The notes: generated from the letters alone by a model not told the origin. A stretch of DNA of 33,141 nt from a virus (IMGVR_UViG_3300025098_000159:1-33141); one strand, 5' to 3'. Positions 2 to 11,146 are shown, numbered from the stretch's first letter. Made by a program: numbers and translations.

Positions 2-1650
2 ACGTCTACCACTACTACGTTTAATACTACTACTACATACTCTACTAATAGAGCAACTACAACTACTTTTAATACGTCAACCGCTACCGTAACAGTATTT
101 AACACATCTACTACCACCGTGTTCAGCACCAATACAAGTAAATCAACTACTACTGTATTTAATACAAGTACAACTACAACTATTAGTACTAACAGGTCAA
201 CTACAACTGTATTTAATACAACCACTACATATAGTACCAATAGAACTACTAATACTGTATTTACTACTAGTACGTCACGTTCTACTAATAGAACAACTAC
301 TACAACATTCACAACAACATTTGAAACAAGTAGAACAACTACGTTTAACACTTCAAGAACTACAACTATAAGTACTAATAGAACTACAAACACTGTGTTT
401 AGCACAACAACAACGTATAGTACAAACAGAACAACTAATACGGTGTTTACAACAACTTTCCCTACTAGTAGAAGCACTAATAGAGCTACTACTACTACGT
501 TTAATACGAGCACAACTACACAGACCAGTAGATCTACAACAACTACATTTAATACAAGTACAACAACCACTTTTAATACATCTAGAACAACTACATTTAA
601 CACAAGTAAATCTACTAATCGTACTACTACAACTACATTTACAACTACGTTCTCTACATCTACTAATAGAAATACCACCACAACATTTAACACTAGTACC
701 ACAACGCAAACATCTAAATCTACCACAACTGTGTTTACTACTAATACAAGTAGGTCTACAAACAGAACAACAACAACAACATTTACTACAACGTTCAATA
801 CTAGTAGAACCACCACATTTAATACTAGTAGAAGTACAGCTACTAGCAGATCAACTACAACTACATTTACTACAAACACAGTAGTGTCAACTAACAGAGC
901 TACTACCACAGCTTATACTACAACATTTAATACGTCAAGAAGTACTAACCGTAACACTACAACAGTTTTTTCAACCACCACAACGTTCAATACAACTACA
1001 ATTTTTAATACTACGTATTCATCACATATACGATCTACAAACAGAAATACGTCTACAAATAAAAATACAACTGAATCAAGAAGTACGTCAACTAATAGAA
1101 ATACTACTACTACGTATTCTTCACATATAAGATCTACCAATAGAACAACTAACACAGTGTTTAATACTCTAACTACGTTCAATACTAGTAGAACAACAAC
1201 GTTTAGTACTACTACACAATACTCTTCACATATACGATCTACTAATAGAAATACATCTACAAGTAGAAGCACAACTACTACGTTTAATACTACTACTATT
1301 TTTAGCACAACCACTGTGTATAGTACTAACAGAAACACAGCTACAAGTAGAAGTACTAATACGGTATTCCAACAGTCAACACTAATGGCATGGTTAACTG
1401 GTACAGTAACACAAATGAATACATCTACTAATAGAAGCACATCAACTACAACTACGTATAGTACAGTTACTACTTTTAACACTAGTACGTCCACAGAAAC
1501 TACTAAAATAACAGTGTTTAACACGACAACTACTTATCAGACTGCTCACAATACAACAACTACATTTACTACAACGTTTAACACGACATTTAACACTAGT
1601 ACATTAACCTATACATTTACAGCGTTTGTAACAATATTTCAAACGTCAAG
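2..1650 (+). repeat. Degenerate in-frame repeat array of protein A (about 24-nt unit)
   Basis: The DNA is a long array of Thr codons broken by TTTAATAC-like stretches (Phe-Asn-Thr) and ACTAATAGA-like stretches (Thr-Asn-Arg). Units are typically 8 codons but vary in length. The third codon positions are shuffled, so it is not a clean tandem repeat at the DNA level although it is strongly repetitive at the protein level. Confidence 0.8.
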
Positions 1651-1705
1651 ATCAACATTCACGTCAGGTGGTGGCGGTGGTGGTTGTAGTAGAGGCTGTA
1701 ACTAA
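2..1705 (+). CDS. Thr/Ser/Asn-rich repeat protein A, putative virion fibre (5' truncated by window edge)
   Basis: The reading frame is open from base 2, so the true start lies left of the window; the first in-window start candidate, a GTG at 119, sits in the middle of a repeat and is probably not real. Almost the whole protein is made of short units of the type x-T-T-T-(F/V/Y)-N-T-S and S-T-N-R-x-T-T, with Thr about half of all residues by eye, regularly spaced Phe/Val/Tyr, and Arg or Lys in the turns. A short non-repeat interruption (about 1366-1420) contains the window's only Trp in this gene. The C-terminus leaves the repeat and ends in six Gly followed by C-S-R-G-C-N. No family is recognised. 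The neighbours (methyltransferase, a second repeat protein, head and tail genes) and the extended repetitive design suggest a tail or head fibre or adhesin. Sure of the CDS, unsure of the role. Confidence 0.75.
   Translation, partial: TSTTTTFNTTTTYSTNRATTTTFNTSTATVTVFNTSTTTVFSTNTSKSTTTVFNTSTTTTISTNRSTTTVFNTTTTYSTNRTTNTVFTTSTSRSTNRTTTTTFTTTFETSRTTTFNTSRTTTISTNRTTNTVFSTTTTYSTNRTTNTVFTTTFPTSRSTNRATTTTFNTSTTTQTSRSTTTTFNTSTTTTFNTSRTTTFNTSKSTNRTTTTTFTTTFSTSTNRNTTTTFNTSTTTQTSKSTTTVFTTNTSRSTNRTTTTTFTTTFNTSRTTTFNTSRSTATSRSTTTTFTTNTVVSTNRATTTAYTTTFNTSRSTNRNTTTVFSTTTTFNTTTIFNTTYSSHIRSTNRNTSTNKNTTESRSTSTNRNTTTTYSSHIRSTNRTTNTVFNTLTTFNTSRTTTFSTTTQYSSHIRSTNRNTSTSRSTTTTFNTTTIFSTTTVYSTNRNTATSRSTNTVFQQSTLMAWLTGTVTQMNTSTNRSTSTTTTYSTVTTFNTSTSTETTKITVFNTTTTYQTAHNTTTTFTTTFNTTFNTSTLTYTFTAFVTIFQTSRSTFTSGGGGGGCSRGCN
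1013..1249 (+). repeat. Three copies of a Y-S-S-H-I-R-S-T-N-R motif
   Basis: Within repeat protein A the ten-residue motif YSSHIRSTNR occurs at 1016-1045, 1115-1144 and 1220-1249. It contains the only His and nearly the only Ile-Arg pairs in this part of the array. The copies are separated by 99 and 105 bases and differ at synonymous positions (for example CGA, AGA and CGA for Arg). This is a higher-order repeat laid over the Thr-rich background. Its function is unknown. Confidence 0.75.
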
Positions 1706-1731
1706 GAAAATAAATATGTAATTATAAAAAT

Positions 1732-2793
1732 ATGTCAGGATACGAAAAACCGTCGGATACGCAGATTAATTATCACAAAGCAGACCTTACAGTTAGGGAT
1801 AATGGTGATATTGTTTGGTTTAATCCGACAGCACAAGAAACATGGGAAGTTATGATGGGTTGGGAACAGCCTATTATGGAAAAGATGGCAGAGGTGTGTG
1901 TCAACGAGGGTGACCATGTTTTAGAGTGTGGTTTTGGTATGGGTATATTAGCTACAGCTGTGCAAGCAAGAAAACCAGCATCACATACAATAGCAGAAAC
2001 ACATCCACAAATACAACCAAAACTTGCTGAGTTTGCTTCTAATAATCCAACAGTAAGAGCTGTAAACGACAGGTGGTATAGCTTAATAGAAGAGGCTGGT
2101 AGGTATGATGTTATACTAATGGATACATATGCTGACGCAGACTTACATCCAAGGTTTGCATATTTTGTAAAACAAAAAGCAAAGCAAGGTAGTAGAATAT
2201 CTTGGTGGAACTGGAGTGGCGGTAAAACAGATCCATGGATGAAATTTTATTGGCCAGACGAACATATTGTTTTTCACGATGTAGATATAAATCCACCTGC
2301 AAATCAATACTACAACAAGTCTGTATATCACTTACCTGTATACACAAATCAAAAGCCAGCAACTGGTTATGGTGTAGTAAGGCAAGATGCTACGATACAT
2401 GTTAATGGTAACGACTCTATTCCTATGTGGCAAGTTGTAAAGCATGATAAGTTATTATCGTCAGACGTAGCAGGTAATAGATCAGAAAAGCAGAGAGGTG
2501 AAAAAAATGTTTTTATAATGAAAGCAAAAGGTATATATACAATAAACTCTGATTTAAAAGCTACTGGCAACCAACCTATAATAGCAAAAAGAAATAATGC
2601 GTGGCGTGAGTTTAACGTAAATCAACTAACCGTTGGCGACAAGTTATATGGTATTGCTGGTAACGAAATAGAAATAACACAAATAGACTTTGACGATTCA
2701 GATACTGTATATGAAATATGCAAGCTAGGCGTTAGTTATAATTACTTTGTTAACGGTATACTTGTTGGGGAAGGAGGTGTAGACAATGCCTAA
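1732..2793 (+). CDS. Guanidinoacetate/arginine N-methyltransferase-like enzyme with a degenerate C-terminal Hint domain
   Basis: Residues 40-205 look like a class I SAM-dependent methyltransferase of the GAMT/RMT2 type: a W-E-x-P-x-M segment at 44-49, motif I VLECGFGMGI at 63-72, an acidic residue after strand 2 (E89 in HTIAE), and L-M-D-T-Y at 129-133, matching the D-T-Y of guanidino methyltransferases. The tail N-x-Y-Y...Y-H-L-P-V-Y (191-204) resembles the end of that fold. Known family members methylate guanidinoacetate or the arginine of a protein (RMT2). Residues 213-349 look like a Hint/intein fold: D-A-T-I-H-V-N-G, then K-H-D-K-L-L, K-A-T-G-N-Q-P-I, L-T-V-G-D-K-L, and Y-E-I...Y-F-V-N-G-I-L-V. 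The usual nucleophile Cys, block B His and terminal His-Asn are absent. The ATG follows an A/T-only leader, and the 3' end overlaps the next gene by 8 bases. The substrate is not known; the flanking Arg-containing repeat proteins are an attractive inference. Confidence 0.7.
   Translation: MSGYEKPSDTQINYHKADLTVRDNGDIVWFNPTAQETWEVMMGWEQPIMEKMAEVCVNEGDHVLECGFGMGILATAVQARKPASHTIAETHPQIQPKLAEFASNNPTVRAVNDRWYSLIEEAGRYDVILMDTYADADLHPRFAYFVKQKAKQGSRISWWNWSGGKTDPWMKFYWPDEHIVFHDVDINPPANQYYNKSVYHLPVYTNQKPATGYGVVRQDATIHVNGNDSIPMWQVVKHDKLLSSDVAGNRSEKQRGEKNVFIMKAKGIYTINSDLKATGNQPIIAKRNNAWREFNVNQLTVGDKLYGIAGNEIEITQIDFDDSDTVYEICKLGVSYNYFVNGILVGEGGVDNA
2771..2779 (+). promoter_or_regulatory. Canonical Shine-Dalgarno sequence for repeat protein B
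   Basis: AAGGAGGTG lies inside the 3' end of the methyltransferase gene, with the GGAGG core ending 8 bases before the ATG at 2786. It is essentially a perfect anti-SD match, whereas the other genes in this window have A/T-only leaders. It also encodes G-E-G-G-V of the upstream protein, so coincidence cannot be excluded. Confidence 0.5.
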
Positions 2794-5700
2794 TACTACT
2801 ACAACCTTTCAAACATCTTTAGGTACAGATAGACCAACGCAAACAACTACTACGTTTAGCACAAGTAGATCTACAAGCAGAACAACTAATAGAAATACTA
2901 CAACCTACTTCAATACTAGCACTAGTACTCAGACTACACGTACAACTATATTTAACACTACCACCGCCTTCAGCACAAACCGAAGTACAGCTACTAGCAG
3001 AACTACAGGTACTACAACTACATTTAATACAACAACATCTTATACAACTCTGTTTAGCACAAATAGAGAACACGTGCTTTGGTCTCCTGCTACACCAGGT
3101 ACAGACCCACTATATAATTTTGATCATGATAGCACTGCTCAAGGTGCTGGTGACTATCCAGGTGATGGGTTGTTTAGAGTAAATAACCCAAGTGGTAATC
3201 CTAAAGATACAACAAAAATTACTGTTTCAAGGTATGGTGCGGCTGGCACAGGTACAGATCACACAGGCGCTATGGATTCTATTGTAAATGCGACAGTTCT
3301 TAATGGCGCTAAAGGTAGGTTGCGACTTCTTGGTATACTTAATGCTAGTGGTGCTGCTTATTCAGCTCCCGGCGTATCATATAGAATTACAGCTGCAACA
3401 AAACGAACAAACGGTTCAGACATACACTTTGAATTTACCGTTGCATATACTGGCTGGGCGGGTGGTGGTCCAAGTTTTACTGAATCAAATGGCGTTGCAA
3501 CAAGTTATGAAGAGAGTAGTTTAGCATTGTATCAAATAGGTATTGCGTTTGAAGATCCAAGCGACACGTGGAATACGTCAACTGCTACAACTACTACGTT
3601 TAGTACAAATACTATTTACAACACGTCAACAACCACAACTACTAATAGAAACACAAGTACTAGCAGCTCAACAACAACAACGTTTAATACAACAACAGTA
3701 TTTAACACAAGTACTGTAACTAATAGAAGTACATCTACAAGTAGAACCACAACGTTTGAAACTAATCTTGCTGTTTCAACTAATTTCGATACTACTACTA
3801 CGTTCAACACTAGCACTATAACAAACAAAACTACAAATACAGTATTTAGCACTACTACAAGTTATACTACAAACACTGTGTTTAATACAAACACCGTGTT
3901 TAACACGAGTACAATAACTACTAGGTCTACAAATAGAAGTACGTCAACAAATAGAACTACAACTACTAATAGAACTACCAATACAGTGTTTACCACAACT
4001 TTCAATACTAGTACAGTAACTCAAAAGTCTACCACAACAACATTTAACACTAGTACTGCAACCACAACTAATAGATCAACCACCACGACATTCAGTACTA
4101 CAACTACATTTAATACTAGCAGAACTACAACATTCAATACTTCTAAGTCAACCAACAGAACTACTACGACTACATTTACAACTACCTTTAGTACGTCTAC
4201 TAATAGAAGCACCACTACTACATTTGGCACTACCACAACTGTATCTACAAATAGAAGCACTAATACAGTGTTTAATACAACTACATCACGTAGTACAAAT
4301 AGAACAACGACTACAACTTTTACTACGACATTTAATACATCACGTACTACAACATTTAATACATCACGCACAACTACTATAAGCACAAATAGAAGTACTA
4401 CAACCACATTCGGTACTACTACCACTGTGTCCACAAACAGAGCTACTACCACAACTTTTACCACTACGTTTAATACATCACGTAGTACAAACAGAAATAC
4501 TACAACTGTGTTTAATACTAGTACTGCAACTTCAACTAATAGAAATACTACTACTGTCTTTAACACTAGTACTACTACTACTTTCAATACTAGTAGAACC
4601 ACAACGTTTAATACTAGTAAGTCAACTAATCGTACGACTACTACAACTTTTACTACAACGTTTGGAACTTCTACAAATAGAAACACAACGACTGTATTTA
4701 ACACGTCTACAGCTACATCAACTAATAGAGCGACGACAACTACGTTTAATACGTCAACTACAACAACAGTATCTACTAATAGATCAACAACAACTACGTT
4801 TACGACATCTACGTCGCGTACAACTACTATATCTACAAATAGATCAACCAATACTGTTGTATCCACTAACAGAGCTACTACTACTGTGTTCAATACCTCT
4901 ACAGCAACGGCCACAAGTAGAACTACTACAGTATCAACTAATAGAGCAACAACTACTACGTACTCTACTAATAGATCTACAACTACTACATTTAATACAG
5001 CTATAAGTACATCAACTAGTAGAACAACTACAATATCTACTAACCGTGCTACTACCACAACGTTCAACACATCAACAGCTACAGCAACTAGTAGAACTAC
5101 TACTATTAGTACAAACAGAGCTACGACTACTACATACAATACAACAAAAACAACTAACACTGTATTCAATACATCGACTACAACGCAAACGTCAAGAACT
5201 ACTACAATATCTACCAATAGGTCTACGACTACAACATTTAATACATCTACTAGTACAACAACTGTATTTAATACTAGTACTACAACTACATTTAATACTA
5301 CAACTACATACAGCACTAATAGAAGTACGACAACTACTTTTAATACTAGTACTACAACTACGTTTGGTACATCAACCACTGTATCTACCAATAGGGCAAC
5401 TACTACTACGTATGAAACTACAAAGACTACAAATACAGTGTTTAACACGAGCACCACTACTCAGTTTGCTACTACCACTACATACAGTACAAACAGAAAT
5501 ACTACCACAACGTTTAATACATCAACGGCAACTGTAACAACATTTAATACAAGTACTACAACTACTTTTATTACAACAACTACGTTTAATACAGCTATAA
5601 GTACTACCACTACGTTTAATACAAGTACCACAACAACATTTAATACCACGACAACGTATAGCACTAATAGAACTACCAATACAGTATTCAATACTAGCAC

Positions 5701-6691
5701 GTCTACTGTTACCGTGTTTAATACATCAACTGTTACGCAAAAAACAACTAGCACTGTTGTTAGTACAAATAGATCCACAAGCACAGTGGTATCTACAAAT
5801 ATCGATACAACTACTACATTTAATACTTCAACTAATACTATAACGGCGTACACAACAACATACTCAACAAACAGAGATACTACTACAACGTATAATACTA
5901 CAAGAGCTACAACAACCACGTATAATACAAGTACTAGTACAACTACAGTGTTTGAAACAACGTATGAAACAAATAGATCTACAACTACAACGTACAGTAC
6001 AAATAGAACAACCAATACTGTATTTAATACATCAACTAACACAACAACTGTATTTAATACAACTACCGCTACAGTAACTACGTTTAATACAAGTACAGCT
6101 ACTACAACTACGTTTAATACAAGTACTAACACTATAACGCTATATAGCACAACATATGAGACTAATATTGATACGACTACAACTTTCAATACATCAAGAA
6201 CTACGATATTTATAACTACTATAAGTACAAACAGAGATACAACCACAGTATTTAATACAAGTACGGTTACTGAAAAAGCTACTAGCACTGCATATAGCAC
6301 TAATAGAACAACAACAACAACTTATGAAACGAGTAAATCTACTAACACTGTAGTGTCAACTAATAGAACAACTAACACGGTGTTTAACACAACTACAGCA
6401 ACAACTACTACGTTTAATACTACAACTGCAACTGTTACCGTGTTTAATACTACAACTACAACAAATAGAAGTACAACTACTACATATAGTACAAATAGAA
6501 GTACAACAACTGTAGTATCAACTAATAAAGCTACAAGTACAGCATACAGTACTAATAGAGCTACTAACACTGTTATAAGTACTAACACTGTGTTTAATAC
6601 AACCACAACATTTAATACGACAATAGCATTTTACAATACAGTAAGATCAGATTACAATACTGACAGGGTAGACTACAATAGCTCTAGTTAG
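2786..6691 (+). CDS. Giant Thr/Ser/Asn-rich repeat protein B with a single folded island, putative phage fibre
   Basis: This 1301-residue protein begins with about 90 residues of Thr-rich repeat. An ordered, repeat-free island follows at about residues 93-265, with Trp, Pro, Gly and Asp, segments such as G-D-G-L-F-R-V-N-N and Y-T-G-W-A-G-G-G, and alternating hydrophobics that suggest a beta-sandwich. About 1000 residues of the same repeats as protein A then run almost to the end. The last residues switch to Y-N-T-x-R-x-D-Y-N units with acidic and Tyr residues. The island resembles beta-rich domains found in phage fibre and tail proteins, which is the best clue to a virion role; no exact family is claimed. 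Start choice is supported by a perfect Shine-Dalgarno sequence and an 8-base overlap with the upstream gene. Long minus-strand open frames over it are repeat artefacts. An adhesin or another surface-exposed beta-solenoid is an alternative. Confidence 0.75.
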   Translation: MPNTTTTFQTSLGTDRPTQTTTTFSTSRSTSRTTNRNTTTYFNTSTSTQTTRTTIFNTTTAFSTNRSTATSRTTGTTTTFNTTTSYTTLFSTNREHVLWSPATPGTDPLYNFDHDSTAQGAGDYPGDGLFRVNNPSGNPKDTTKITVSRYGAAGTGTDHTGAMDSIVNATVLNGAKGRLRLLGILNASGAAYSAPGVSYRITAATKRTNGSDIHFEFTVAYTGWAGGGPSFTESNGVATSYEESSLALYQIGIAFEDPSDTWNTSTATTTTFSTNTIYNTSTTTTTNRNTSTSSSTTTTFNTTTVFNTSTVTNRSTSTSRTTTFETNLAVSTNFDTTTTFNTSTITNKTTNTVFSTTTSYTTNTVFNTNTVFNTSTITTRSTNRSTSTNRTTTTNRTTNTVFTTTFNTSTVTQKSTTTTFNTSTATTTNRSTTTTFSTTTTFNTSRTTTFNTSKSTNRTTTTTFTTTFSTSTNRSTTTTFGTTTTVSTNRSTNTVFNTTTSRSTNRTTTTTFTTTFNTSRTTTFNTSRTTTISTNRSTTTTFGTTTTVSTNRATTTTFTTTFNTSRSTNRNTTTVFNTSTATSTNRNTTTVFNTSTTTTFNTSRTTTFNTSKSTNRTTTTTFTTTFGTSTNRNTTTVFNTSTATSTNRATTTTFNTSTTTTVSTNRSTTTTFTTSTSRTTTISTNRSTNTVVSTNRATTTVFNTSTATATSRTTTVSTNRATTTTYSTNRSTTTTFNTAISTSTSRTTTISTNRATTTTFNTSTATATSRTTTISTNRATTTTYNTTKTTNTVFNTSTTTQTSRTTTISTNRSTTTTFNTSTSTTTVFNTSTTTTFNTTTTYSTNRSTTTTFNTSTTTTFGTSTTVSTNRATTTTYETTKTTNTVFNTSTTTQFATTTTYSTNRNTTTTFNTSTATVTTFNTSTTTTFITTTTFNTAISTTTTFNTSTTTTFNTTTTYSTNRTTNTVFNTSTSTVTVFNTSTVTQKTTSTVVSTNRSTSTVVSTNIDTTTTFNTSTNTITAYTTTYSTNRDTTTTYNTTRATTTTYNTSTSTTTVFETTYETNRSTTTTYSTNRTTNTVFNTSTNTTTVFNTTTATVTTFNTSTATTTTFNTSTNTITLYSTTYETNIDTTTTFNTSRTTIFITTISTNRDTTTVFNTSTVTEKATSTAYSTNRTTTTTYETSKSTNTVVSTNRTTNTVFNTTTATTTTFNTTTATVTVFNTTTTTNRSTTTTYSTNRSTTTVVSTNKATSTAYSTNRATNTVISTNTVFNTTTTFNTTIAFYNTVRSDYNTDRVDYNSSS
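3574..6610 (+). repeat. Degenerate in-frame repeat array of protein B
   Basis: Continuous array of units such as T-T-T-T-F-N-T-S, R-T-T-T-F-N-T-S and S-T-N-R-x-T-T-T. Larger blocks recur: the 16-residue peptide beginning S-K-S-T-N-R is encoded at 4142-4189 and 4616-4663, and once more in protein A at 605-652. Synonymous codons differ widely between copies while the peptide is identical. Confidence 0.8.
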
Positions 6692-6746
6692 AAAACACTA
6701 AAAGTGTGTAATAGTATATAAAGAAATTTAAATTTAATTTAATTAT

Positions 6747-7652
6747 ATGGAAATGTTTAATAGGAAGGTTCTGAAAGAAAGAATAGGGCACCTTCAAAAA
6801 AATGATAAGCTCGATTACTTGGAGCAAGTAGAGGGCTATGTTATACGAAAGTGTAGCGAAAACGGAATAGAGTATGCTTACGATGTGATGGCAGAAGAGA
6901 TGCCTTACTTTAAAACAATGGCATACACAGAGTTGGCAACGTGTTTTTATTTGCAGCCAATGAACTTCAAGATAAGAGACGCACAATTGCCAGATGCGTT
7001 TCATGATAAAGATCATGAAGTTTTAGATTATGCTTCTTACTTTGTAAGTAACATAACAGATAATACTGCCAACAAGTATAAAGATAGGTTAGATGACTAC
7101 CAAAAGTGGCCAGCTAAAGACTACTTAGTAATACTTCCAGGTTCAAACAAATTAAAAGACAGATGTTGTTTGAACAAGATGAGGCACATACAGAGAGTAC
7201 ATAAGGGTAACGTTTTATTTAAACCGCATCCGATAACAACTCATCAAATCATTGGTGAGATGAAAGATTTGTTCGGACAGGAAAATGTACTGCCAAGAGA
7301 AATGGATATGTATTATTATATACAAAAGTCAAAGAAAGTATATACAACTCACTTAAGTGAAAGTGCTGTGTATGCTAGTGTTTTAGGTAAAGACATAGAA
7401 CCATTTGATGTATGGAATAATATATTTTACGGGTCTTTCTATTGTGTTAGTAATCATTTATTTGATAACAAACATGATGCAAGAAATTATATCAACAAAG
7501 TTTTTTCAAGTCCTAAGTCAGGAATTATATGTCCTAGAATAGATAAAAACTGGAAAGAAAAAGTTGATAAGTACTTTGAGTACATAACTGCTAAAAGAGA
7601 TAAGTATAAAAACTGGTTTATTGATAGCAGAAAACCAAAAAATAAAAAATAA
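6747..7652 (+). CDS. Putative GT-B-fold glycosyltransferase (KpsS/sialyltransferase-like motifs)
   Basis: The 301-residue protein has the architecture of the second half of a GT-B nucleotide-sugar transferase. A strand L-V-I-L-P-G-S-N at 127-134 opens the domain, L-F-K-P-H-P at 157-162 matches the HP motif, Y-Y-Y-I-Q-K-S-K-K-V-Y-T at 189-200 precedes T-H-L-S-E-S-A-V-Y-A at 201-210, and D-I-E-P-F follows. The HP motif plus a Ser-rich motif is the pattern of capsule/Kdo transferases of the KpsS/KpsC type and of bacterial sialyltransferases, where these residues bind the nucleotide part of the donor. The N-terminal half is not recognised. There is no signal peptide, so it would act in the host cytoplasm. 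It follows repeat protein B by 55 bases. It may glycosylate the Thr/Ser-rich fibres or alter host surface glycans; both are inference. The ATG at 6747 is used; a second in-frame ATG lies at 6753. Confidence 0.55.
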   Translation: MEMFNRKVLKERIGHLQKNDKLDYLEQVEGYVIRKCSENGIEYAYDVMAEEMPYFKTMAYTELATCFYLQPMNFKIRDAQLPDAFHDKDHEVLDYASYFVSNITDNTANKYKDRLDDYQKWPAKDYLVILPGSNKLKDRCCLNKMRHIQRVHKGNVLFKPHPITTHQIIGEMKDLFGQENVLPREMDMYYYIQKSKKVYTTHLSESAVYASVLGKDIEPFDVWNNIFYGSFYCVSNHLFDNKHDARNYINKVFSSPKSGIICPRIDKNWKEKVDKYFEYITAKRDKYKNWFIDSRKPKNKK

Positions 7653-8707: not shown

Positions 8708-8933
8708 AGCTGTTGATGAATTAATCAAAGTTGCTAAAGAAGAAATTGTAGATACAGAAGAGGATGTATCTGCTGATAGATTAAAAAATGCCGCAGCAAC
8801 TAAAAAGCTAGCTATATTTGATGCGTTTGAGATATTAAATAAAATACAAGACGAGCAGAACATGCTTGATGGTAAAGTGCAAGAAGATAAAACACAAGCC
8901 TTTGGCGGCTTTGCTGAAAACAGATCTAAATAA
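8661..8933 (+). CDS. Probable small terminase subunit
   Basis: This 90-residue helical protein has a basic N-terminus (M-N-I-K-D-K-K-K) and a central segment A-D-R-L-K-N-A-A-A-T-K-K-L-A-I-F-D-A-F followed by E-I-L-N-K-I. It lies immediately upstream of the large terminase, which it overlaps by one base (TAATG), the classical position of the DNA-recognition subunit of the packaging motor. It also overlaps the preceding gene by 47 bases. Small terminase subunits vary greatly in sequence, so the call rests mostly on position, size and helical character. A packaging accessory or head-assembly protein is the main alternative. Confidence 0.5.
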   Translation: MNIKDKKKNIIQAGYKAVDELIKVAKEEIVDTEEDVSADRLKNAAATKKLAIFDAFEILNKIQDEQNMLDGKVQEDKTQAFGGFAENRSK

Positions 8934-11146
8934 TGTATAACCAAACATTATGTAAAATTGTTGAACCTATAAAATTAACAACAATAAATAGGTTAAACAA
9001 AAGCAAAAAGTGGAAGTATGGATATAACAAAGAACATGATGTTGTTGTTATATCTAAAACAGGCATGATAGGTGATATAATAGAAATACAAAATCTACAA
9101 ATAGCATTACCTAAACAACCAAAGAAAATACATAAGTTTAAAAAGGACAAATGGGAAGTAACACCATATCCAAAAGAACTTAATAGGATAAAATCTATAT
9201 TTGATTGGAGAGATTATCCTAATGAATTTAAAAGCAAGTATATTGATTATATTGAAGAAGAGTTTACAAAGAGAGAAAATGGCTTCTGGTTTTATAACAA
9301 AGGCATTGCTACTTATATTACTGGTACTCATTACATGTACCTCCAATGGTCAAAGATTGACGTCGGACACCCTGATTTTAGAGAAGCAAATAGATTATTC
9401 TTTATTTTTTGGGAGGCATGTAAAGCGGATGCCAGAAGTTATGGTATGTGCTATCTCAAAAACAGACGCTCAGGCTTTTCTTTTATGGCGTCGGGGGAAA
9501 CAGTTAACCTCGCCACAATATCTTCCGATGCACGTTTCGGGGTATTGTCCAAATCTGGTGCCGATGCGAAGAAAATGTTCACGGATAAAATTGTCCCGAT
9601 TTCGGTCAACTATCCTTTCTTCTTTAAACCGATCCAAGACGGGATGGACAGACCCAAAACAGAGTTGGCTTATAGAGTACCTGCTTCAAAGCTTACTAGA
9701 AGAAAACTCACCGCAAGTTCCGAAGATCAACCTGAAGAACTCACGGGGCTCGATACAACTATTGACTGGAAAAATACCGGTGATAATTCGTATGACGGAG
9801 AAAAATTAAAGTTATTAGTACACGATGAAAGTGGTAAGTGGGAAAGACCAGATAATATACTAAACAACTGGCGAGTAACTAAAACCACATTACGATTAGG
9901 TAGTAGAGTTATTGGTAAGTGTATGATGGGCTCAACTTGTAACGCGTTAGACAAAGGTGGTGATAATTTTAAGAAATTATATTATAACTCTGACGTAACT
10001 AAAAGAAATAAAAATGGCCAGACAGCTTCAGGACTATATTCGTTTTTTATACCAATGGAGTGGAACTATGAAGGCTTTATGGATGAGTATGGCTTACCTG
10101 TGTTTGATACACCAGATAACGAGGTCTACGGTCCACACAATGACCTTATTGATACTGGCGTTATAGATCATTGGCAAAATGAAGCTGATGGTTTGAAGAA
10201 CGACCAAGACGCGTTAAATGAATTTTATAGACAGTTTCCAAGAACTGAAGAGCACGCGTTTAGAGATGAAACTAAAAACAGTATATTTAATTTAGTAAAG
10301 ATATACGAGCAAATAGATTACAATGAAGAAACAAATCAAGGTATATCTATTGGTAATTTTCAATGGATTAACGGGGTAAAAGATTCAAAAGTACAATTTT
10401 ATCCTGATCCAAGAGGTAGATTTAGAATTAGTTGGGTGCCACCAACTCACTTACAAAATAGAGTAATTGACAAAAATGGCACTAAATATCCAGGCAATGA
10501 GCACATGGGTGCTTTTGGTTGTGATAGTTATGATATATCAGGTACTGTAGATGGTTTAGGATCTAACGGCGCTTTACATGGTTTAACAAAGTTTAGCATG
10601 GAAGACGCACCACCTAGTCAGTTCTTTTTAGAATACGTGGCTAGACCAGCAACAGCTGAAATATTTTTTGAAGACGTTTTAATGGCGTTGGTATTTTATG
10701 GTATGCCAATACTTGCAGAAAACAACAAACCACGTTTATTATATCATTTAAGAAGAAGAGGTTATAGAGGTTATTCAATGAATAGACCAGATAAAGTTTG
10801 GAATAAATTATCACAAAGTGAAAAAGAAATAGGTGGTATACCAAACTCTAGTGAAGACATAAAGCAAGCTCATGCGGCAGCAATTGAAACTTACATACAA
10901 GAACATGTGGGTTTAAAACCAGATGGAGGTTGTGGCAATATGTATTTTAACAGAACACTAAATGATTGGTCGAAATTTGATATTACTAAGCGTACTAAGT
11001 TTGATGCTACTATTAGCAGCGGTCTTGCGATTATGGCTTGTAATAGACACTTGTATCAACCGAATAAAAAAATTGAAAGAGCGAAAGTAAACTTAAGTTT
11101 TTCAAAGTATAATAATGAAGGATTTACTTCACAAATAATAAAATAA
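8933..11146 (+). CDS. terL: Terminase large subunit (packaging ATPase/nuclease)
   Basis: The 737-residue protein has the two-domain plan of a phage DNA-packaging motor. A degenerate Walker A-like loop, K-N-R-R-S-G-F-S at 176-183, is followed by Walker B L-K-L-L-V-H-D-E with D298 and E299 as the presumed Mg and catalytic acids. The C-terminal RNase H-like nuclease begins around G-A-F-G-C-D-S-Y-D (D531), with further conserved acidic and Arg segments after it. It translocates DNA into the prohead through the portal and cuts concatemers. The start is the ATG overlapping the upstream stop by one base; the portal gene follows after 3 bases. The stretch between Walker A and B (about 9449-9790) uses codons unlike the rest of the gene, with many CTC, GGG, TCC and CCG, hinting at a mosaic exchange. 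Confidence 0.9.
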   Translation: MYNQTLCKIVEPIKLTTINRLNKSKKWKYGYNKEHDVVVISKTGMIGDIIEIQNLQIALPKQPKKIHKFKKDKWEVTPYPKELNRIKSIFDWRDYPNEFKSKYIDYIEEEFTKRENGFWFYNKGIATYITGTHYMYLQWSKIDVGHPDFREANRLFFIFWEACKADARSYGMCYLKNRRSGFSFMASGETVNLATISSDARFGVLSKSGADAKKMFTDKIVPISVNYPFFFKPIQDGMDRPKTELAYRVPASKLTRRKLTASSEDQPEELTGLDTTIDWKNTGDNSYDGEKLKLLVHDESGKWERPDNILNNWRVTKTTLRLGSRVIGKCMMGSTCNALDKGGDNFKKLYYNSDVTKRNKNGQTASGLYSFFIPMEWNYEGFMDEYGLPVFDTPDNEVYGPHNDLIDTGVIDHWQNEADGLKNDQDALNEFYRQFPRTEEHAFRDETKNSIFNLVKIYEQIDYNEETNQGISIGNFQWINGVKDSKVQFYPDPRGRFRISWVPPTHLQNRVIDKNGTKYPGNEHMGAFGCDSYDISGTVDGLGSNGALHGLTKFSMEDAPPSQFFLEYVARPATAEIFFEDVLMALVFYGMPILAENNKPRLLYHLRRRGYRGYSMNRPDKVWNKLSQSEKEIGGIPNSSEDIKQAHAAAIETYIQEHVGLKPDGGCGNMYFNRTLNDWSKFDITKRTKFDATISSGLAIMACNRHLYQPNKKIERAKVNLSFSKYNNEGFTSQIIK

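Follow-up and report, generated by a model that had tools for sequence, protein, structure and literature searches.

The putative fibre genes and their relatives

The record IMGVR_UViG_3300025098_000159, from a marine virus of bacteria (33,141 bases, analysed over its whole length and called the window here), carries two giant threonine-rich genes, A and B, on either side of an enzyme gene. Proteins A and B are very probably the antiparallel, co-extensive and in-register legs of a single, very long and thin, beta-structured virion fibre. Their repeats match in length among relatives, are complementary in antiparallel orientation, change length by mirrored insertions and deletions (indels), and have single-chain counterparts with a hairpin layout. 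A search with the enzyme yielded 47 IMG/VR loci (these and other loci are cited below by our L numbers), 37 of which have Thr-rich open reading frames (ORFs) on both sides in the same A-enzyme-B order. Since these contigs were assembled separately, the arrangement is not an assembly artefact.

An earlier reading of the window, made from the sequence only, had proposed two Thr-rich giants of at least 567 and of 1301 residues flanking an enzyme gene. This description holds, with Thr accounting for 260 of the 567 visible residues of A (46%) and 568 of the 1301 residues of B (44%). Its eight-residue grammar gave way to a stricter and shorter unit: the aromatic spacings of B are mixed (10 > 6 > 8 > 4) and the constant part is a register of two residues. 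The repeat is real, but a picture of repeats alone is incomplete because B contains a knob and A ends in a Gly-rich tail (Table 1). Within B 276-1301 one phase of the register holds F (67:0), R (55:1) and K (10:0), and the opposite phase N (119:2), S (121:3) and A (31:0). This phase is kept for 1026 residues, far beyond chance. Aromatic spacings in all Thr-rich ORFs of the enzyme-containing loci are 5467 even to 762 odd, a count over related and not independent sequences. Gly/Pro turns are nearly absent from the repeat and His is rare (4/1301 in B, 4/567 in the visible part of A). Changes between the window and L005 at codon positions 1/2/3 number 82/98/347; their excess at the third position shows that the sequence is coding and that selection acts on the protein. 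A knob-like insertion is also found near the A C-terminus of L008. No match to A or B was obtained in Pfam and PHROGs searches. Comparison of B with phage records by tblastn/blastn gave nothing useful, since the repeat is masked by low-complexity filtering; six hits in Staphylococcus look like simple-repeat matches.

Length match and antiparallel register

A fixed rule on Thr density served to strip the proteins of knobs, Hint and S74 domains and other parts outside the repeat before repeat lengths were taken. The A and B lengths agree in 27 phages over a range of 262-1644 amino acids (aa), with a Pearson coefficient of 0.9993 and a median mismatch of 0.9%; none of 20000 permutations was as good. 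In the ANTIPARALLEL register, A compared with reversed B peaks at end-to-end overlap, which the parallel orientation does not. When every offset with at least 60% overlap was allowed and the best one was counted if it fell within 20 residues of end-to-end, the antiparallel comparison succeeded in 23 of 27 phages and the parallel one in a single phage (1/27). The phage's own B ranked first among 22-27 candidates in 20 of the 27 cases. Pairing scores obtained by leaving out one cluster at a time likewise have their maxima close to end-to-end, z reaching 7.5. The gapless alignment of L014 extends over ~700 residues and contains 152 complementary pairs, where other offsets have a median of 40. In the highly regular decapeptide arrays of L118, L063 and L026, secondary peaks recur about every 10 residues, as expected. 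The pairs that are enriched relative to same-parity shifts (eight phages, symmetrised) are K:N (4.2-fold), H:N (3.6), R:N (2.8), F:A (2.2), Y:S (1.9), F:S (1.7) and T:T (1.3), while K:S pairs are depleted to 0.12.

In the window, the visible A residues 1-340 match B without gaps, with a score of 64 that is the best of 700 and a z of 4.75 among offsets of the same parity, the best parallel z being 2.3. The position of A residue 1 opposite B residue 719, together with loci L003-L005, predicts a full-length A of ~1150 aa, whose start would resemble the M-W-D-L-F-R of those loci. A parallel A/B register is ruled out by the pairing scores. Inversion at the DNA level was also rejected as the source of the mirror pattern, because no DNA operation reverses codon order with the codons intact. 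A second register shifted by 2 residues, with even more aromatic:Ser matches, was observed in L014, L019, L020 and L029. We do not claim a barrel shear from it: it is inseparable from the S-K-S word and could reflect a second neighbouring strand.

Mirrored indels in the two genes

A and B were aligned independently between relatives and indels of at least 6 aa were counted. A B indel of the same size at the facing position accompanies 43 of the 140 A indels, compared with 10 at un-mirrored positions and 9.7 expected (maximum of 17 in 500 simulations). Pairs within a cluster are not independent, a dependence that the un-mirrored and random controls carry equally. The series -12,+2,+2,+12,+2,-4 is found in both genes between L015 and L023, and one starting -2,-8,-2,+2,-8,-8 in both genes between L032 and L039. 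Indels between relatives are even-sized in a proportion of 76:3, a bias to which in-phase recombination and the aligner are expected to contribute.

Single-chain relatives with a hairpin layout

Some Thr-rich relatives are single chains. These are self-complementary, with the best centre at 0.49-0.54 of their length in 16 of 20, a result given by only 6 of 54 A and B proteins taken alone. The six A-headed single chains L068, L075, L091, L116, L129 and L161 behave likewise (centres 0.48-0.51), and several single-chain relatives have a non-Thr tip at the midpoint. The figure of 16/20 comes from the simple pairing code; a learned 20x20 matrix reached 7/20 and is not transferable to all classes. 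As single chains are complementary to themselves about their midpoint, the A and B pair resembles such a hairpin cut at its tip. The layout orders the ends: the A N-terminus and B C-terminus would form the base, and the A C-terminus, B N-terminus, knobs and S74 domains the tip.

To our knowledge, residue-by-residue pairing of this kind is otherwise familiar only from far shorter fibre stems. In D11 of the T4 long tail fibre protein gp37, the stem legs 882-931 and 960-1009 enclose the tip 932-959 (PMC6957217). Two equal legs around a distal tip is also the layout of the single-chain relatives, here as judged from the sequence pattern. The differences are that gp37 has legs of 50 aa, against up to ~1640 here, that it is encoded by one gene instead of two, that the pairing code of the present proteins is of low complexity and Thr-based, and that no His-rich iron motif runs along their stem. 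When the B repeat was compared with every PDB chain by phmmer, nothing was returned (best E 6.9, unrelated), and no sequence similarity to gp37 was found.

The enzyme and the tail of A

The AlphaFold2 (AF2) model of the enzyme has a predicted local distance difference test score (pLDDT) of 85. In Foldseek this model matches guanidinoacetate N-methyltransferase (GAMT; 1xcj, E 2.4e-11, TM 0.72) and its bacterial intein-like (BIL) domain matches 2lwy and 6tmm; a profile match to 3orh (E 7e-18) and the S-adenosylmethionine motif agree with a methyltransferase. E45 and D131 are invariant and align with the WE-P and DTY elements of GAMT, whose Glu, the counterpart of E45, we take to bind the guanidino group. 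A catalytic role has been described for GAMT Asp134 (PMC12471008). The enzyme is thus like GAMT in its modelled fold and its carboxylates, and unlike it in being fused to an intein-like domain and phage-encoded between fibre genes. This domain has the fold of BIL/Hint domains; unlike them, its alignment shows neither the Cys of the first block nor the final His-Asn, the protein ending in NGILVGEGG, which marks it as a catalytically dead copy. In L063/L130, an intein-like domain that looks active, with Cys at its start and His-Asn at its end, is fused to the end of A rather than to the enzyme, and CTRGHPC follows it.

A Gly-rich tail with an R-G motif is present in 33 of the 35 A proteins that accompany an enzyme, in three contexts (CxRGC, RGGGG, PPRGGGG). 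The two exceptions are L079, with CFRNC, and L024, whose A frame is broken before the end; this frame change lies near the 3' end of the gene (4946-7209) and may be a sequencing error or real. Most A-headed proteins without an enzyme lack the tail as well, except those of L063/L130. Enzymes without a BIL domain (L031-L039) go with an R-G tail devoid of Cys, and those with the domain go with CxRGC, apart from L005/L006 (RGG, no Cys) and L079. Because the presence of the BIL domain tracks the tail Cys, we propose that the tail Arg is the target of the methyltransferase and that docking of a tail with Cys is assisted by the dead BIL domain, both putative roles with roughly balanced prospects of being right.

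An enzyme unrelated to the A tail has an even chance. It would be compatible with the fibre model and could target a small molecule, another virion protein, or Lys/Arg residues along the legs. GAMT relatives adjoin other tail genes without Thr fibres (L041-L047, L178), and the slot between A and B holds a spermidine-synthase-like gene in L100/L151, a different gene in L118, and none in L140/L169, so the fibre principle does not require the enzyme. Such an enzyme leaves unaccounted for the R-G tail of the enzyme-bearing A proteins and its usual absence elsewhere. Several further genes were observed in or beside these regions. Nucleotidyltransferase-like (by eye), spermidine-synthase-like and class I methyltransferase genes occupy or flank the slot in L118 (3430-4050, 5706-6299) and L100/L151. 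Two tandem GAMT-like genes in L041-L047 lie near proteins with an intein-like C-terminal end and near several genes resembling, by eye, 2OG-Fe(II) oxygenases, another possible tail-modification cluster. In the 635-kb phage L178 (LR745206.1), a GAMT-like gene (9905-10501) directly follows three large fibre-like genes. A scan of genome contigs gave only six distant GAMT relatives, in metagenome-assembled genomes of Alphaproteobacteria.

Fibre model and alternative explanations

In the proposed fibre, the A N-terminus would stand beside the B C-terminus at the base, and the A C-terminus beside the B N-terminus at the tip. In each chain, large residues (F/Y/W, K/R/H, T) on one face would alternate with small polar ones (S, N, A, T) on the other, large residues facing small ones on the partner (aromatic:Ser/Ala, basic:Asn, Thr:Thr). 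The whole would be a gp37-like stem, a hairpin whose distal tip is the point at which it is split into two genes; the enzyme gene between them is hence predicted to lie exactly at the tip position. The knobs and the R-G tail of A would sit at this tip, where a guanidino-type methyltransferase may methylate the tail Arg. Beta strands running along the axis are suggested by the residue alternation and by analogy with gp37; a location in the virion, this polarity and a stoichiometry of perhaps 3A:3B are likewise proposed. Extended beta geometry spans ~0.33 nm per residue, and the fibre of the window would measure roughly 350 nm if fully extended.

Several observations weigh against this model or parts of it. 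The pairing peaks of L100, L032, L037, L151, L118 and L169 are weak or ambiguous, which indels or near-perfect decapeptide arrays explain in part. The protein family itself supplied the pairing rules, which were tested on held-out clusters and single chains. The AF2 prediction of B 80-480 (monomer, 5 sequences) gives the repeat a pLDDT of 25-37 and no direct structural support, and the fold and stoichiometry are therefore putative. A gp37-like trimer of six strands is a suggestion drawn from analogy and from S74 domains in three relatives. Proteomics or electron microscopy evidence was found for no member of the family. As to methylation, L063/L130 have the R-G tail without a methyltransferase and L079 a methyltransferase with CFRNC.

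A and B could instead be independent fibres, for instance two homotrimeric beta-helices or beta-solenoids that are merely equally long, as for a common reach. The length match would be explained, and S74 domains are typical of homotrimeric fibres: as in Peptidase_S74 (endosialidase-type chaperone) fibres and spikes, A of L100 has this domain at its C-terminus (scoring above the cut-off of Pfam), with look-alikes by eye in L151 and L153. Window A differs in lacking a C-terminal S74 and ends in GGGGGGCSRGCN. We consider independent fibres unlikely, since they leave the residue-level antiparallel register, the same-size mirrored indels and the self-complementary single chains unexplained. Thr at alternate positions recalls TxT insect antifreeze proteins and adhesin beta-solenoids, but the coil length is not constant here (aromatic spacings 4, 6, 8, 10, 14, 16...) and the chains pair mutually. 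The two separate repeat proteins and the solenoid with Thr ladders of the sequence-only reading thus give way to mirror-paired partners.

An unstructured, possibly glycosylated Thr/Ser brush forming a mucin-like coat, another option raised in that reading, would suit the composition, the low AF2 confidence and the KPHPIT motif of the follower gene, whose likeness to GT-B glycosyltransferases found no database match. It is very improbable, because a strict two-residue register, even-sized indels, mirrored complementarity and matched lengths are not expected of a disordered chain; a structured fibre may itself be glycosylated. The same reading had named confident disorder without homologues as grounds against itself; AF2 confidence is low (pLDDT ~25-37) and homologues are abundant. 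Its long, thin, beta-type surface fibre of important role agrees with conservation well beyond the contig and with tail-fibre gene neighbourhoods. Equally improbable is an amyloid- or silk-like sheet material, secreted or serving virion aggregation: silk-like alternation and the scarcity of Gly/Pro turns fit it, and it is contradicted by unique registers, defined partner pairs, heads, tails, knobs, S74/Hint domains, a tail-fibre gene neighbourhood and the baseplate-wedge-like fusion of L056, just below the cut-off.

Table 1. Features of the window discussed in the text (coordinates in nucleotides).
Feature	Position	Strand	Description
Protein A	2..1705	+	567 aa, C-terminal portion, 5' end open at the window edge; Thr-dipeptide leg 1
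A residues 1-340	2..1021	+	Gapless antiparallel match to B 719-380
Non-repeat stretch of A	1370..1411	+	Short; QQSTLMAWLTGTVT; at about the height of the B knob
C-terminal tail of A	1667..1702	+	GGGGGGCSRGCN, Gly6-CSRGCN (Gly-rich, R-G motif); predicted fibre tip, candidate methylation site
Enzyme	1732..2793	+	GAMT-like methyltransferase domain (~residues 1-212) and C-terminal intein-like (BIL/Hint) domain
Protein B	2786..6691	+	1301 aa; leg 2; start overlaps enzyme stop by 8 bases
Knob of B, residues 94-262	3065..3571	+	Globular; inserted near the predicted tip
B residues 380-719	3923..4942	+	Faces A 340-1
B residues 720-1301	4943..6688	+	Predicted to lie opposite the missing N-terminal half of A (~580 aa)
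Follower gene	6747..7652	+	phrog_26179, 301 aa; homologous to the gene just 3' of single-chain fibre genes
Terminase large subunit	8933..11146	+	Genomic context

Neighbouring genes and distribution

The follower gene of B matches the gene after single-chain fibres with an hhalign E of 1.8e-22. Many lineages of phages have a conserved follower of ~300 aa directly 3' of their Thr-rich fibre genes (the window; L055, 5538-6434; KVP40.0256), with the motifs LPG(S/T)N, KPHPIT and SE. It is perhaps a fibre-modifying enzyme or an assembly factor; its assignment as a GT-B glycosyltransferase, suggested by the KPHPIT motif, was unsupported by Pfam or PDB. Members of phrog_26179 occur in the cultured phages KVP40 and DLP6 and in the cultured Caulobacter phages Lullwater and Cr30, and Thr-rich proteins are encoded just upstream in three of these (KVP40.0254, 29% Thr; Lullwater gp41, 26%; Cr30 gp254, 20%). 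Short versions in the Vibrio phages 6E35.1a and F86 have an apex, CGKGVC or CSKGGC, that is reminiscent of the CxRGC tail. The hairpin signal is weak in these short cultured-phage proteins, which are leads and not proof.

A DNA pattern for TTTTFNT retrieved at least 120 further stretches, many with even-register Thr-rich ORFs in other settings and, among the matches listed, with several further N-terminal head types. The N-terminal fusion of L056 scores 26.9 bits in Pfam, against a cut-off of 27, and tail-fibre-like genes lie upstream in L019 and L118. Similar-looking small domains of ~90-110 aa were noted at the end of B in L015 and at the end of A in L031-L039, which are opposite predicted fibre ends. 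The nearest relatives of the window terminase are those of an uncultured podovirus (64%) and of phages infecting Flavobacterium and Cellulophaga; L052 and L053, the two terminase relatives inspected, had no such Thr-rich ORFs in the stretch read.

Significance

No description of such a two-gene fibre was found among open-access papers. The stem-tip layout is known from gp37 and, as far as we found, the two-gene, code-paired form is apparently undescribed. Tentatively, at a little below even confidence, we propose that A and B are the protein equivalent of complementary strands: separately encoded chains would recognise one another at the level of single residues, along hundreds to over 1600 of them, by a simple large:small, basic:amide and Thr:Thr code. 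Partner choice, register and length would be written in the sequence and kept by mirror-image compensatory indels, and a dedicated guanidino methyltransferase, whose gene lies at the break point, would methylate the tip Arg of one chain.

A low-complexity, unannotatable type of sequence that is common in marine viromes would thereby become a predictable structure whose length, partner and tip can be read from the sequence. The pairing rules would provide a natural code for long antiparallel beta fibres, useful in protein design, and the mirrored indels a case of compensatory length evolution between two genes with single-unit precision. The findings also point to a phage enzyme possibly modifying the fibre tip, and candidate relatives in cultured phages of Caulobacter and Vibrio could open the fibre model to direct tests.

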